Assembly (NCBI GenBank): GCA_026988815.1
Contig: JALSKP010000724.1
Span: 1-39,604 of the forward strand
DNA: 39,604 nt
Source of the DNA: Myxococcales bacterium
GTDB taxonomy: Bacteria > Myxococcota_A > Bradymonadia > Bradymonadales > Bradymonadaceae
Direction: 5' to 3'
Shown here: positions 26,254-37,389 of the stretch, piece after piece
How positions within the stretch are numbered: position 1 is the stretch's first letter
How the letters are laid out: each line of letters opens with the position of its first letter
Notes under the pieces: generated by a model
The model's input: the letters and a program-made list of their open reading frames with translations, nothing else
Database searches by the model: none
Told to the model about the DNA's origin: nothing
Position numbers and translations under genes: made by a program

Positions 26254-27582
26254 CTAGATTCCGGCAATCTGAAGGTAGGGATCGAGGGTTTTTACATCAC
26301 GAATAAACTGCTCTTCTACGATCTCCAGGTGAGGATCCCAAAGCGGTCCTGTTTCATATATTTTTGAACCCTCATGCACACGGTATATGAAGGTAGCCAC
26401 CTCGGGAATCGCTGAACGATCGGCAAGTAGATTCTGCCGTTCGAGGGGATACTGGTTGCATATTGTTAGCCAGGTAAAGAAGGTGAGAACATGTTCAAAG
26501 TCGCGCAGATGAAGTTGGGTTCCCGAACTTGCAAAAAGAAAAAGGTCGTTCATCACTTTGCGCATAAGGCGAGCACGGCCCAATTTTGAATCGTGGAAAA
26601 TACGAACACCCGCGTCGATAAACCAATCCGGTGAAAGATTCATTCTTGTGCGAATGATATCGTGGAGTGAGTCCGTCCCCGCACTCGTTGGGAATTCTTC
26701 TTTCATAATCCCTTGCAGTGCGCGCTCGAGTTCGGTGCCGTTACGTTCCGGCAAATTAAATCGCGTCGAAAATATTTTCGCCAAATATTGCTCTGCATCA
26801 AAGGCGTTGACATGGTAGCGATTTTCGATTGAGGTACGGACGATGGCTGGATCGAGTCCCGCGTAAATCGTTACAGGTGCGCCAGCTGAGGCTAGAAAAA
26901 TAATGCTCTCAATAATTTGAACCTGCGCGCCGGGGGCGCAACGGTCCAGATCATCAATGCAAATAAGCAAGCGATTGCCATATTCTGCCTCTTCGGAACT
27001 AATGGAATGTCCGACCAGATCTGAGAAGGCCTCGCCCAATTTAATCATGGGGTCGTTCCATTCTAAGGTATCGCTATTGGATTTTTTATAGGTCCCCATC
27101 AAGGATGGTAAACCCATGATGGCACCGCCGATGATCGGATTTCCGGATGCCATCAAGGCCGCACCTCCGGCTTTTTGCAGGAACGCGAATCCGGCCGAGA
27201 CCATTGTGTTGAGTGCTTTTTCCCTTTCCCCTTTTCCGAGTTTTAAACGGTTTACTAAAATGGATGCGATCGGCGAGATCACGTCCGGTACACTCTGACG
27301 CCAGGGGTTTATCCAAATCGGATAGTATTTTTCTGCGTCTTTTTCTTTTCCTGCGAACTCGTCGAGGCGACGATTTCTTTCTTCAATAAAGATACGGGCT
27401 AGAAGATCGGTCTTTCCCGTTCCCCATCCTCCTTGAATTGCGATGACACTTCCGGGAGCGAGCTGACTAGCGCGTTGATGAAAAATCGTGGCAAGCTTGT
27501 CGTGCTCGAACCAATCCTTTGGAGGATTCCAATCTGAAAGAAGCTGTTTTTGGGTAAAAAAATCTCGTCGAATATTTTTCAT
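26254..27582 (-). CDS. KAP-family P-loop ATPase
   Basis: A 442-residue protein with Walker A GGWGTGKT (51-58) and Walker B LLICIDDLDRC (Asp210, Asp211), preceded by INPWRQ, which are the signatures of the KAP family (named for Kidins220/ARMS and PifA). A Gly/Ala-rich hydrophobic insert between the motifs (about residues 129-163) is the usual place for a KAP membrane hairpin, though it is weak here. KAP ATPases include the plasmid F phage-exclusion protein PifA and many membrane-linked signalling ATPases. No second defence gene stands beside it. It lies on its own, converging on the kinase; 37 bases separate it from the GMC dehydrogenase. Confidence 0.87.
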   Translation of the reverse strand: MKNIRRDFFTQKQLLSDWNPPKDWFEHDKLATIFHQRASQLAPGSVIAIQGGWGTGKTDLLARIFIEERNRRLDEFAGKEKDAEKYYPIWINPWRQSVPDVISPIASILVNRLKLGKGEREKALNTMVSAGFAFLQKAGGAALMASGNPIIGGAIMGLPSLMGTYKKSNSDTLEWNDPMIKLGEAFSDLVGHSISSEEAEYGNRLLICIDDLDRCAPGAQVQIIESIIFLASAGAPVTIYAGLDPAIVRTSIENRYHVNAFDAEQYLAKIFSTRFNLPERNGTELERALQGIMKEEFPTSAGTDSLHDIIRTRMNLSPDWFIDAGVRIFHDSKLGRARLMRKVMNDLFLFASSGTQLHLRDFEHVLTFFTWLTICNQYPLERQNLLADRSAIPEVATFIYRVHEGSKIYETGPLWDPHLEIVEEQFIRDVKTLDPYLQIAGI

Positions 27583-30346: not shown

Positions 30347-32122
30347 TTAGCTCAATGCCGATGAGATTAAATTTTCTCGGCTCTTTGCGATGAAGTGGGC
30401 GACGCTTCTAACTTCGCTCAAGCGCTCATCCACTTCTTTGGCGAGCGCGACGACGTCATCATCGTCTTTCCTCTCTTCCAAAACTTGCTCCAGCACTTCC
30501 TCAATTTGTCGATAAAGTTTATCGCCCGCCGTTTCGACGAATGTTTTCAGCCGATCGCCGTAATCGTGAATGACGTGTAAGAGTTCTTCTTCGACTTTCT
30601 GGCTGGCTGATTCAATTGACTTAACGCCAGCCTCGCGCGCCCGGTCTTTTATCTGAGAATCGACTTTATCTTTCAAAAAGAACGCTAAAACAGGAGCGGC
30701 GAGGGTGAGTAATCCGCCGACCAACGCGTTAGCAAAAAGGTAAACTGAAACGCCCAGCGCTCCCAATGCAAAAACACCAACATCGTAGGCGATGGTGTCC
30801 ACTTCCAAGTCTAAATCTTTGCCCACACCAAGTTCGTCCCGTAAGGATTCGACGGTATCGCGTAGGGATTCGTTGGTTATTTGGATGATTTCTTCGGCGA
30901 GCTCTTCCAGATCTCCGGCAAGGTTTTCACCTTCTTTTTCGAGGAACCCCTTAAAGGTGTCTTGGATAAAAGAGGGGAGATAGAGTTTTACATCTTTTGC
31001 GTCCGCTTTTTCAATTTCCATGGGTAGGGCAGACTGAAAGGCTTCGTTAAAGGTTCTGAGATTTCGTTTCGCGCTCGCGGCAATATCGGAAACTTTCTCG
31101 TCGATAAGATCGAGATTTTCGGCGATGAGCTTTCGCGAACTTTCAAGCTTTTCGCTGACATTGGCAATACGTTTTACGAGTTCATCTTTTTCAAGCAAGT
31201 ACCCTTGCTTTTTTATCGCAAGGTTTTGTTCAAGCATTGTCGCAATGCGAGCACCTCCGCCGAGCGCGCTGTCGAGAATAATGTAGGCGCGTTGGTCACT
31301 TAAAAAGTTCGATAGATGATCTTTGAATTTCAAAAATTCCGGTGGTGCCGGTTTTCCCTCGGATTGAAGATCGAGCGCCGCTTTTCCAGAAAGGGCAAAT
31401 AGTTGGACCTCACCGATCAGTCCCTCCAGACGTTCGCGCGCGTAGCTTTCGACCTCGGCGGCATCATCTTCATCAAGTGCATCAATTTTACCCAAGATAA
31501 AAATAATCCGATCGCGGTTGGCTGTTAAAAGGCGATCACGGATAAAGACCACTTCGCTTTTCTTTAAGACTTGGGTGGCGTCAAGAACATAGAGGATCAC
31601 ATCGGCACGTGGAACGTAGCCGTAGGTGATTTCTACTTTCTGCCGAGAAATATCGTTAACGCCTGGAGTATCGACAAGGGTCAAAGACTGATTAAGAAAG
31701 GCGTTGGGATGGGAAATTTCTACAAATTCAGGTTCATCTTTTTCGTCCTCGGCATGACGAATGACATCCTCAAGTTCGCTGAGTTCGATTTCATATTTTT
31801 CCCCAAACACGGGCTTCACCGAAATCTTTCGCTTTTGGCCATAAACCAGGTGCGTGATAACAGCGGTTGTTGGTGTAATCCCCATGGGGAGAACTTCTTC
31901 ATTGAGAAGCGCATTCACAATGGTGGATTTCCCATGATTGAATTCGCCAAGAACGACAAGCGTAATTTGCTCCTGGGTCAGCATAGGCAAACGTTCTTCA
32001 AAAACTTCTTTTTTGAGAGATTGTAGGCCACTTCTGTCCGCGATTTCACCAAGTTCGGTGAGGAGATCGGCGACCTGTTCGGCAGAGATTCGACTCGTTT
32101 CTTTTTGTGTTTCTTCGCTCAT
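30347..32122 (-). CDS. Bacterial dynamin-like GTPase
   Basis: I place the start at the ATG at 32122, seven bases after the M48 stop; the upstream in-frame TTG would overlap the M48 gene. The 591-residue protein has G1 GEFNHGKS (59-66), G2 TPTT (83-86), G3 DTPG (151-154) and a G4 of GKID (211-214) in place of N/TKxD. A long helical stalk follows, with a hydrophobic paddle or membrane hairpin at about 448-483 and helices to the C-terminus. This is the layout of bacterial dynamin-like proteins, which bind and remodel or fuse membranes. Coupling to the M48 protease and lipoprotein genes suggests a joint envelope task. Confidence 0.88.
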   Translation of the reverse strand: MSEETQKETSRISAEQVADLLTELGEIADRSGLQSLKKEVFEERLPMLTQEQITLVVLGEFNHGKSTIVNALLNEEVLPMGITPTTAVITHLVYGQKRKISVKPVFGEKYEIELSELEDVIRHAEDEKDEPEFVEISHPNAFLNQSLTLVDTPGVNDISRQKVEITYGYVPRADVILYVLDATQVLKKSEVVFIRDRLLTANRDRIIFILGKIDALDEDDAAEVESYARERLEGLIGEVQLFALSGKAALDLQSEGKPAPPEFLKFKDHLSNFLSDQRAYIILDSALGGGARIATMLEQNLAIKKQGYLLEKDELVKRIANVSEKLESSRKLIAENLDLIDEKVSDIAASAKRNLRTFNEAFQSALPMEIEKADAKDVKLYLPSFIQDTFKGFLEKEGENLAGDLEELAEEIIQITNESLRDTVESLRDELGVGKDLDLEVDTIAYDVGVFALGALGVSVYLFANALVGGLLTLAAPVLAFFLKDKVDSQIKDRAREAGVKSIESASQKVEEELLHVIHDYGDRLKTFVETAGDKLYRQIEEVLEQVLEERKDDDDVVALAKEVDERLSEVRSVAHFIAKSRENLISSALS

Positions 32123-32129
32123 TTTTCGC

Positions 32130-33011
32130 TCAAATAACTTTGATAATGTCTTCAACTTCTCGATCAATTTCGTCTAAAGGCCGTCCGCCTTTCTCTCCGA
32201 TCAAATTTCTATAATAACTTGATTCGGCAAAGAGTTTTAAGGCTTGGATCCGTTTGGGAAGGTAGGGATGGGTTTTGGTCAGTTCGGTCAGGCGACCCCA
32301 CCCCTCTTTGATGTCTTCAAGTTGAGACACGAATTCATCGACGTCCATTTTCGGGTACATTTTTTGACTTCCCAGTCCCATTCTCATGATCGATTCTAAG
32401 GCCACCTTTTCATCGCGACAGCAGATCAATCCCGCACGATCGCAGGTAATTTCACTACGGCGACTCCACGCGTTTAGCGCCAGTCCTGCGGGCATACTCG
32501 CCCACTTTACGACAATACCTAATCCATTGGCCAATTGCTTGGCCGCACTATGGTAGACGACGTGATTATTTTGAATGTGCCCACTTTCATGCCCCAGTAC
32601 GAAGAGCACTTGTTCATGGGTAAACGAATCGACAAGCGCTGAATTGACAACGATAAAGGATTCGGTGTTCGTTCCGTAGGTTCCAGCATTAATCGTTGGA
32701 TTATGGGTGACGTAAACGGTTGGAACAACGATTTTTAGAATTTTTGCACAATGTAAAATTTGATCGTGAAATGCTGGAAATTGGCGCGAGTTTACGCGCA
32801 CCGCAGTTCCTAAAAGATCGGAACGTTGGAAGGTTTTCCAAAATCTCACCGATGCTTCTACGACCATGCGAACAGGGGCTAAGCGTTCTAATTTTCGGAG
32901 AACGCGTAAGTCGCCGGAGAAGGCATAATCACCAAAATTGCCGCGCTCTTCGGCAGTTCCACTTGGGCTTTTCTGTTGGTCAATATAGTGTTGAAAATCG
33001 AATGTCGTCAT
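32130..33011 (-). CDS. M48-family zinc metalloprotease lacking membrane segments
   Basis: Start set at the ATG at 33011 (AGGA six bases ahead, eight bases after the lipoprotein stop), giving 293 residues. Zinc-site motif HESGH (141-145) is present, and SEITCDRAG supplies the third ligand Glu187, as in M48 peptidases such as HtpX and BepA/LoiP. TYGTNTESFIVVNSALVDSFTHEQ is the typical preceding block. No signal peptide or hydrophobic segment is seen, so it appears cytoplasmic. It lies between the lipoprotein and dynamin-like GTPase genes with gaps of about eight bases on each side, i.e. the middle gene of a three-gene operon. Confidence 0.88.
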   Translation of the reverse strand: MTTFDFQHYIDQQKSPSGTAEERGNFGDYAFSGDLRVLRKLERLAPVRMVVEASVRFWKTFQRSDLLGTAVRVNSRQFPAFHDQILHCAKILKIVVPTVYVTHNPTINAGTYGTNTESFIVVNSALVDSFTHEQVLFVLGHESGHIQNNHVVYHSAAKQLANGLGIVVKWASMPAGLALNAWSRRSEITCDRAGLICCRDEKVALESIMRMGLGSQKMYPKMDVDEFVSQLEDIKEGWGRLTELTKTHPYLPKRIQALKLFAESSYYRNLIGEKGGRPLDEIDREVEDIIKVI

Positions 33012-33019
33012 TGGAAATC

Positions 33020-33409
33020 CTATTTCGTGATTACGAATCGTTTTTTGGTTACGCGTTTCTTTGCATCCATTGCCTGAACGGAAATACGAAAATCGCCTTT
33101 GCAAATCATGGGCGGATCCCAGGATGTGGGTGGCTTCCATTCAAAAATATCATCCACCTCCGCACCGTCCCCAAGGGTCATGGACACACCGTTAACGGAG
33201 GCAATGAAACTATCAACGACAAGATCGCGATCTGGATCGCTGATATTGACCGTGATTTTATCAACGAGAGGGAAGTCGAAATTGCTATCCTCTTTGCAAG
33301 ATACTCGGGCATCTTCAACGGCCGGTGGAATCGGTGGAGGAACTTCTTCCTCTTCACATGAAAGGCTTAGAAAGAGGAAAGGAATCGTCACTAAAAGGGT
33401 CCAACGCAT
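33020..33409 (-). CDS. Small lipoprotein, 129 residues
   Basis: GGAG lies five bases before the ATG at 33409. The signal peptide ends LSLSC (Cys18), followed by four Glu residues and a Pro-rich linker. Residues 35-129 look like an immunoglobulin-like or fibronectin-like beta domain: KITVNISDPDRDLVVDSFIASVNG, then WKPPTSWDP and ...DFRISVQAMDAKKRVTKK. Two Cys in the mature part (KED-adjacent Cys38 and the MICKG Cys) could form a disulfide. First gene of the lipoprotein/M48/dynamin-like operon. Exact role unknown. Confidence 0.75.
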   Translation of the reverse strand: MRWTLLVTIPFLFLSLSCEEEEVPPPIPPAVEDARVSCKEDSNFDFPLVDKITVNISDPDRDLVVDSFIASVNGVSMTLGDGAEVDDIFEWKPPTSWDPPMICKGDFRISVQAMDAKKRVTKKRFVITK

Positions 33410-35192: not shown

Positions 35193-37190
35193 TTATTCAA
35201 CCTCGAAGCTAAGCGTCCAAGAGACAAGTTTTCCAACGTCTACAGCCGCGCTATCAACGATGTGAAGGGTATATTCTCCAGAAAGCACCTCGCCTTTTAA
35301 TGCATCAAGTGCTTTGGAATCAATAATCACGTTCGCTTGAGCATCGGCGCCTTTATAGACCTCGATGGTCTTCGCGCCTTTTGAAAGCGTGATGCTAAGG
35401 TCGCCGCGGTAGGTGTGCTCGACGTTGAGATTAATGAGTGCTTTTGCGATCTTACCGGGCTCATCAATCACGATGTTATCAAACGCGCCTGAAGCGTCGT
35501 TATCAGGAATGGCCATATTGGGAGTTGATGTTTTCGTGACCGATTTTTGATTGTCATTTCCAGACGAAAGTTTCGAGCCGACCAAGGCAAAACTGCTTTT
35601 CGCGTAACCATCGATCATGATGTGAATCACACCAGCGCCGGCGAGTTCTACACGGCAGGTTTCATTTGAGCCTGATTTATAAGGACGACAATCGTAGTTC
35701 GCTTTCGTTGGTTCTGAACCCACTTTGACGTAAAGGTCGGCGTCACCGGTACCGCTTAAGACGAATTCGTAAACGCCAGCTGCGAGCACTGGAGTCTGGA
35801 AACGAAGATTTGCGCCACGTGCAAGATCGCCGCTTTCTTGCAAGCCTTTCCAATCTTTGTCTGCGTTATCTCCGCCACCAGGAACGAAGGTATTGTCTTC
35901 TTCGCCGGAAACGAGAACGACTTGTGCCGAATCAACGCCGCGAAACATTTGCTCGAAGGTTTGAGGGTCGTCATATTTCATAAGACCGCGAATCAAAGAA
36001 ATGGTGTCGCGTTCCATCGAACGGAAGAAGGCAGGCATCGCGTTGGTGATGATGTCCACATATTTTGTTCCTTTAGCATCGTCCGGATTTACACGGGCAT
36101 GGGCGTCATTTAATGCTGAATCAACGTAGGCATAAGTATCACAACCGTTCATGAAAACGATGGAATATTGACCTTGAATCCAATCGCCTTTGTTGGCAAG
36201 AGTACGAATATTTGCCCCCAAACCAGCGTGCCCGCCGTAGGCGATAAGATCGGCAGTTCTTGATAACTCTTCATAACGATCGTTGAAATCTCTTCCCGCG
36301 GTTCGAACATTATCGACCAGAAGGGTTGTGATTTTCATCGTTTTTCCGTTCCCAAGTGAGACTTCGAAATTGACTTCAGGATGTTCAACACCAGGGTTTT
36401 TTGTCCTGGGCTCAATCGTTGGACTCATTCCTCTCAATTCACGTTTCATCTTCTTAACGAATTGATTGTATGCAGATATACCAGCATCGGAACGGGTAGT
36501 AGCGCCGTCCTCGTATTTTCCAAAAATGGCAACGATGTTGAGAACATCATCTTCATAAATTTTGTGGTATTCAGGATATTTCCCTGTGGTGTTGATTTCA
36601 CTCACACTCACATTCGCCGTCGCAGTATAGACGTCTTCGTCGGCGAGCTCGCAGTTACGAGCTGTAGCGCGATAGTAATACCACATCGACGAGGTATCAA
36701 CGTCATGGGCGGAACGGTCGATGCAATCATGGTTGTATTTTTCAGTGAAGGCGTCTTGGGCGCTTCTTGCCATGTCGATCGGGATTTTAAATTCGTAGGT
36801 ACTTGGAACGTTGCTTTTCTTTCCCCATGCAACAGGCAAAACCACATCGTAGTTGATCCGTGTACGGCCGTTTTCCTGTGCCGTTTCAACGTTGGATAAA
36901 ATAATCTTATCCAGACGACCGATTGAATTATGCTCGTTGAGGTGACCAATCGTGAAAAGAAGTTGGTCTTCGATTTGGCCGTTGACGTTAAAGCGGGAGT
37001 CGCTGAGAAGCGTTCCGCTAAATGCCATATTTAGGAAAATGGCCTGCACGCTAGAATCGGCTTTTCCATCACTTTTGACGAAATCGCTTTCGCTAATATC
37101 CAATTTTTCTACGGGCGCCGAGATCTCTTCAGAACATGAAAAGGTAAGGCTGGAAACAAGAGCTGCGGCAAATAAAGATTTAATTTTCAA
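35193..37190 (-). CDS. Caspase/gingipain-like lipoprotein with PPC and P domains
   Basis: I set the start at a TTG (37190) with GGAG six bases ahead, giving MKIKSLFAAALVSSLTFSC with Cys19 as lipidation site; an ATG four codons upstream is the alternative. The protein (665 residues) has a roughly 430-residue N-terminal part containing LIAYGGHAGLG (His321) and SIVFMNGCDTYAY (Cys350), the His-Gly and Cys pattern of clan CD (caspase-fold) peptidases. A PPC domain (about 455-545: GVYEFVLSGTGDADLYVKVGS) and a C-terminal P/proprotein-convertase domain (about 565-665: HTYRGDLSITLSKGA ... SGEYTLHIVDSA) follow. Probably a surface protease; activity unproven. Confidence 0.72.
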   Translation of the reverse strand: MKIKSLFAAALVSSLTFSCSEEISAPVEKLDISESDFVKSDGKADSSVQAIFLNMAFSGTLLSDSRFNVNGQIEDQLLFTIGHLNEHNSIGRLDKIILSNVETAQENGRTRINYDVVLPVAWGKKSNVPSTYEFKIPIDMARSAQDAFTEKYNHDCIDRSAHDVDTSSMWYYYRATARNCELADEDVYTATANVSVSEINTTGKYPEYHKIYEDDVLNIVAIFGKYEDGATTRSDAGISAYNQFVKKMKRELRGMSPTIEPRTKNPGVEHPEVNFEVSLGNGKTMKITTLLVDNVRTAGRDFNDRYEELSRTADLIAYGGHAGLGANIRTLANKGDWIQGQYSIVFMNGCDTYAYVDSALNDAHARVNPDDAKGTKYVDIITNAMPAFFRSMERDTISLIRGLMKYDDPQTFEQMFRGVDSAQVVLVSGEEDNTFVPGGGDNADKDWKGLQESGDLARGANLRFQTPVLAAGVYEFVLSGTGDADLYVKVGSEPTKANYDCRPYKSGSNETCRVELAGAGVIHIMIDGYAKSSFALVGSKLSSGNDNQKSVTKTSTPNMAIPDNDASGAFDNIVIDEPGKIAKALINLNVEHTYRGDLSITLSKGAKTIEVYKGADAQANVIIDSKALDALKGEVLSGEYTLHIVDSAAVDVGKLVSWTLSFEVE

Positions 37191-37389
37191 AATGATCTCC
37201 ATCAATGTGGTGTAACGAATAATCAACAAAGCAACTTTTAGGCCAAAAAACCTGCTTTAAATCCTCACGCAAATTCGCGCGATTTAAATCTTATTGACGA
37301 ATTATTGTACAAATTGTCAAGTCCACTTGCCACCAAGTGGGTCTCTCTTTGCACGTTTTGGATCCAAAACAGCGCGTAAGAGAATGGAA

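Follow-up and report, generated by a model that had tools for sequence, protein, structure and literature searches.

A conserved gene pair encoding an M48-fold protein and a dynamin-like GTPase in Myxococcota, and its possible place in a two-dynamin module

Three closely spaced genes lie on the minus strand of contig C724 from a Myxococcales bacterium, and this whole contig, 39,604 nucleotides long, is the window analysed here. The source genome is a draft (88% complete) whose 903 contigs add up to 4.64 Mb. The genes run in the order lipoprotein-like open reading frame, M48-family protein and dynamin-like GTPase (hereafter DLP1), and their coordinates (Table 1) give gaps of 8 and 7 bases, in agreement with the tight spacing described in the initial annotation. 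From the sequence, this spacing looks operon-like. An Rfam search of the window returned no match. Two other minus-strand genes in the window stood out by eye. One (26254-27582) encodes a 442-residue protein resembling KAP-type P-loop NTPases (GGWGTGKTD). The other (35193-37229) encodes a 678-residue predicted secreted protein with caspase-like YGGHAG and FMNGCDTY motifs and C-terminal proprotein-like features.

Table 1. Coordinates of the three genes and their sequence features within the window.
Feature	Position	Strand	Basis
Predicted lipoprotein (Cys18), 129 aa, accessory gene	33020..33409	-	Cys18/Cys38/Cys103 invariant, 8 homologues
M48-family protein, 293 aa, ATG start	32130..33011	-	PF01435 Peptidase_M48 5.1e-24
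HESGH zinc-protease motif, M48 residues 141-145	32577..32591	-	Read from sequence
Glu187 (SEITCDRAG), probable third zinc ligand of M48	32451..32453	-	Alignment
DLP1, dynamin-like GTPase, 591 aa, ATG start	30347..32122	-	PF00350 Dynamin_N 5.3e-31
DLP1 P-loop GEFNHGKS, residues 59-66	31925..31948	-	Invariant or nearly so, alignment A1
DLP1 G3 motif DTPG, residues 151-154	31661..31672	-	Invariant in alignment A1
DLP1 hydrophobic hairpin, ~residues 445-490, likely membrane paddle	30653..30790	-	Kyte-Doolittle 2.02 at residue 450

The M48 protein of the window matches PF01435 at 85.6 bits, against a gathering score of 20.3, and its active site is intact (HExxH plus the downstream Glu ligand). In a hydropathy scan all 19-residue stretches stayed at or below 1.25, which predicts a protein free of membrane segments. 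The protein had been described as one that has lost its membrane segments. Their predicted absence stands, but many M48 proteins are soluble, so it need not reflect a loss. The best solved match is HtpX (3cqb, 1.4e-7), with which the protein shares the PF01435 fold. Unlike HtpX, however, it has no membrane helix and scores 42.9 bits where the NCBIfam equivalog cut-off is 245. HtpX was rejected as its identity, every HtpX cut-off lying far above its score.

DLP1 has the hallmarks of a bacterial dynamin: a Dynamin_N domain with P-loop and DTPG, and a hydrophobic hairpin. The hairpin reported in the initial annotation corresponds to two adjacent hydrophobic stretches (~450-487), and a hydrophobic stretch scoring at least 1.78 is present in all 93 DLP1 proteins inspected. 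The nearest solved relative is the bacterial dynamin BDLP (2j68, 1.4e-29), followed by Campylobacter DLP and the mitofusins. A role in membrane remodelling, as originally suggested, follows from this family membership. The third protein is less clear. It was said to have a beta domain, and this is unproven because the Pfam match is confined to Cadherin_4 and is sub-threshold (0.038).

How far does this arrangement extend? A survey of 379 Myxococcota genomes yielded 93 loci whose DLP1 scores above 200 bits, and their neighbouring genes were called by codon usage. In 86 of the 93 genomes DLP1 has the M48 gene at position -1 on the same strand; like the co-occurrence counts below, and apart from those made on trees, this figure ignores kinship, and several of the genomes are incomplete drafts. 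In a further four (G007, G023, G025, G063) the two genes sit at contig ends in an order compatible with adjacency. G027 and G352 encode both proteins at separate sites. The remaining genome, G019 (77% complete), has DLP1 and no M48 match in a genome search. The next commonest family of DLP1 neighbours turns up in 34 genomes and has no fixed position. Because no other neighbour is comparably constant, the pair can be taken as a real unit, and a chance association was rejected on the shared -1 position. The adjacency of M48 and DLP1 is thus real, old and conserved across Myxococcota. It had been conceivable that the three genes were neighbours only in the source organism. For the M48-DLP1 pair this is clearly not the case.

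Between the two genes the called gap is 44 bases at the median and does not exceed 10 bases in 31 genomes. Other Bradymonadia show gaps of 350-1400 bases. A hidden third gene was considered there and discarded, as part of this sequence codes for N-terminal extensions of DLP1 that are acidic and of low complexity. In G004, G010, G015 and G024 (L065, L069, L075, L080) such acidic or proline-rich extensions are long, ~60-330 residues, and probably disordered. Beyond the survey, a search of named genomes gave one match and a search of viral contigs gave no relatives. Plasmids yielded distant dynamins and M48 proteins only, and none of the three plasmid neighbourhoods inspected (H2, H3, H16) pairs them. 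No earlier description of the combination was found in the open-access literature searched, in keeping with the initial annotation, which knew of no described system joining lipoprotein, M48 protein and dynamin.

Could the locus be a mobile defence module resembling LeoA, whether against phages or otherwise? DLP1 does resemble the PADLOC LeoA profiles (PDLC03839, 1.8e-22). However, unlike the Leo systems it is a widely conserved gene without Leo operon partners. DLP1 is single-copy in the class: each of the 26 genomes in families f1 (the family of the window, 21 genomes) and f2 carries one copy, as do three others. Its orthologues are 46-86% identical to the window copy in alignment A1. Moreover, LeoB and LeoC are absent from the neighbourhood and the M48 protein has no PADLOC match. 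A defence role is therefore highly improbable. A defence island was also rejected; the neighbours are M48 and unrelated genes.

The lipoprotein gene is a different matter. The first proposal joined it to the M48 protein and the dynamin in a three-part machine, and in the window it does lie only 8 bases upstream of the M48 gene. Homologues precede M48 in eight of the 21 genomes of the family (G000, which is the source genome, G001, G004, G005, G007, G008, G010 and G015) and, as a weak match (6.6e-8), in G031 of another family. However, the gene is missing from most genomes with the pair. This is true even of the window's own family, in most genera of which an FHA-domain coiled-coil gene is found instead. 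In addition, the lipoprotein is exported, whereas M48 and DLP1 carry no export signal. Conservation as neighbours thus holds for the pair and not for the lipoprotein, which is an accessory gene. It was rejected as a core part, and a machine built on all three products is very unlikely.

Other upstream genes are also variable. The FHA-domain coiled-coil gene precedes the pair in 13 f1 genomes, with or without the lipoprotein gene in between. Further upstream there is often a member of a family with two likely membrane segments. These two families (L066-L078, L091) might possibly provide a phospho-signalling input. In other families the upstream genes encode, judged by eye, outer-membrane-like proteins, flippase-like membrane proteins and kinase-like proteins.

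Bacterial dynamins usually pair with a second dynamin, and such a partner is not missing here. The source genome encodes a TPR-dynamin of 948 residues, DLP2, on another contig (G000:C764:1054-3900), unlinked to DLP1. Elsewhere the two genes are adjacent. DLP2 lies directly downstream of DLP1 in G095, G119, G126, G287, G305, G332 and six f34 genomes, and the same order in G307 and G244 brings the total to at least 14 genomes. The adjacent copies are mostly 926-1111 residues long, with TPR repeats followed by Dynamin_N in most; the G332 copy is cut by a contig end, and in an f34 example Pfam finds Dynamin_N and no TPR. In twelve adjacent copies and the alignment members, a hairpin scan picked up only stretches within the GTPase domain or close to it.

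The two dynamins also occur together when unlinked. In a first pass DLP2 was found in 83 of 97 genomes with DLP1 versus 6 of 282 without it (Fisher p 7e-61, uncorrected for kinship). A re-check added G099, G155 and G170 as well as truncated copies in G332 and G367, raising the count to 88 of 97; none was found in the other nine, whose assemblies are partly incomplete. The re-check also confirmed DLP2 without DLP1 in G369 and G240. G369 (L239), a nearly complete genome from the genus of G340, has kept a DLP2-like gene and lacks both M48 and DLP1, a joint loss.

This arrangement recalls known bacterial dynamin pairs. In Campylobacter DLP1/DLP2 and in the D1 and D2 parts of DynA, one partner has a membrane hairpin and the other does not (PMC6162298). 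The GTPase domain of DLP1 is related in sequence to those of such systems (Campylobacter 5owv, BDLP 2j68, IniA 6j72 and two-headed DynA), and here too DLP1 has a hairpin and DLP2 does not, with adjacent genes in some genomes. However, there are three differences. The Myxococcota module adds a constant third gene, that of the M48 family; DLP2 bears ~450 residues of TPR repeats; and in most lineages, that of the source genome included, its gene is not linked to that of DLP1.

What does the M48 protein do? The initial annotation envisaged control by a protease, and as a universal principle this fails. HExxH is absent from 22 of 91 M48 orthologues, whereas HExxH and the third Glu are intact in 69. 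The altered sites read RxxGH, RxxGR, HQxxH, HHxxH, QxxGH or SxxGH, among others. Dead copies occur in all five f2 genomes, all four of f30, all six of f34, G031, G332, G272, G305, G095 (HHxxH) and G126 and G287 (both HQxxH); G364, a relative of G272, has an intact site. An HEIRH string in the G272 frame was dismissed as a surviving site, since it sits ahead of the M48 start. Mapped on the DLP1 tree, active-site status requires 7 changes by parsimony, at least six of them forced by well supported branches. If losses are irreversible, eight are counted on the drawn tree.

Despite this, the dead copies do not look abandoned. Their dN/dS is 0.03-0.45 in five pairs, similar to that of the partner DLP1, so they are under purifying selection and are not pseudogenes. 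In the same genomes DLP1 retains its P-loop (GEIKHGKS/T in f34) and DTPG. The active site has been lost several times with the pair kept, and therefore the M48 protein probably serves mainly as a binding partner of the dynamin rather than as a cutting enzyme. Residues common to active and dead copies (D5, F6, Y29, A30, W182 and D191-R192-A193) are candidates for a binding surface. AlphaFold models of M48 and DLP1, built from two sequences each (the window protein and one 86-89% relative), have mean pLDDT values of 35.6 and 39.2, too low to be usable. As a raw count, DLP2 is adjacent in 12 of 21 cases with a dead M48 and in 0 of 63 with an active one. However, this association is a lead only, because it comes down to four independent contrasts, of which 2-3 are concordant.

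An obvious comparison is with mitochondria. OMA1 sits in the inner membrane, with its protease domain on the side of the intermembrane space. The window M48 differs from it in having no predicted membrane segment, and among its orthologues catalysis has been lost repeatedly in nature. DLP1, for its part, is closer in sequence to BDLP and the mitofusins than to OPA1. What the systems share is an M48 protein genetically tied to a membrane-shaping dynamin, and OMA1 does carry an M48 domain and cleave the dynamin-related OPA1 (PMC8027119). The parallel is an analogy and not membership. Nevertheless, it suggests another explanation, in which the M48 protein would cut DLP1 or DLP2 under stress and so stop or reshape remodelling, with dead-M48 lineages having lost this control. 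The intact site in most orthologues, the window's included, favours this, and proteolysis clearly has selective value in most lineages. However, the independent changes of active-site status with the pair retained, and the purifying selection on dead copies, argue against it. On balance we consider regulated proteolysis rather unlikely as the general explanation.

It might also be that the two genes simply share a promoter. M48 proteases such as HtpX serve membrane protein quality control, and M48 and DLP1 could both be envelope-stress genes expressed together without acting on one another. Yet the -1 position is exclusive, and it is held across many families as other neighbours change freely. 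Furthermore, the pair persists after catalysis is lost, and separate clusters of M48 and dynamin genes exist. In G171 (L195, 3742-11218) a dynamin, an active M48, a second dynamin and a third dynamin are nearly contiguous, and in G217 (L196, 963-5900) two dynamin genes flank an active M48. All these dynamins are distant from DLP1 (about 100-117 bits). An operon of convenience is thus improbable. A different dynamin-like gene is found in family f5 (L095-L098, L093), in a conserved five-gene neighbourhood with families 18, 12, 13 and 14.

The reading we prefer, at a probability of about 0.55, is a phylum-level two-dynamin module in which a soluble M48-fold protein would bind DLP1, DLP2 or both, acting as an obligatory adaptor or as a regulator of assembly. 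Its core would be the two-gene operon of M48 and DLP1, working with a DLP2 that is encoded elsewhere in the source genome. All three proteins would be cytoplasmic. The hairpin of DLP1 may insert into the cytoplasmic membrane from its inner face, where GTP hydrolysis would bend, tether or fuse the membrane. DLP2, without a hairpin, would be the non-membrane partner, its TPR array docking clients or DLP1, and the two dynamins could assemble into a hetero-oligomer and so remodel the cytoplasmic membrane. Where the site is intact, as in the source genome, the M48 protein may also cut a dynamin or another substrate and thereby switch the machine off. In many other lineages proteolysis would have been lost, leaving the binding role alone.

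Several observations do not fit an adaptor comfortably. Most M48 orthologues retain the full active site, the genes are apart in two genomes, one genome has DLP1 without an M48 match, nine have DLP1 with no DLP2 found, and adjacency can reflect shared expression only. A bolder version of the adaptor reading is held with somewhat less than even confidence. In it, M48-fold proteins throughout Myxococcota would be partners dedicated to a dynamin machine of three proteins, often as pseudo-enzymes, and would govern how that machine assembles; they may have exchanged cleavage for binding on at least six occasions. By analogy, the module might then be a bacterial counterpart of OMA1-OPA1 whose protease and dynamin remained together once proteolysis had been given up, an idea we regard as equally tentative.

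To our knowledge, almost nothing is known about how bacterial dynamins are controlled. An M48 gene found beside a dynamin gene in nearly every genome, and retained even where its product has lost the catalytic site, suggests a regulator. The natural series of M48 proteins could serve to separate proteolysis from binding, as it runs from active enzymes through HQxxH forms, which have zinc ligands without the catalytic Glu, to fully degenerate ones. Cleavage in the manner of OMA1 and OPA1 could occur only with an intact site. Myxococcota include predators and producers of outer-membrane vesicles, and in this phylum the M48-DLP1 pair may offer a bacterial parallel to the mitochondrial control of OPA1 by OMA1.
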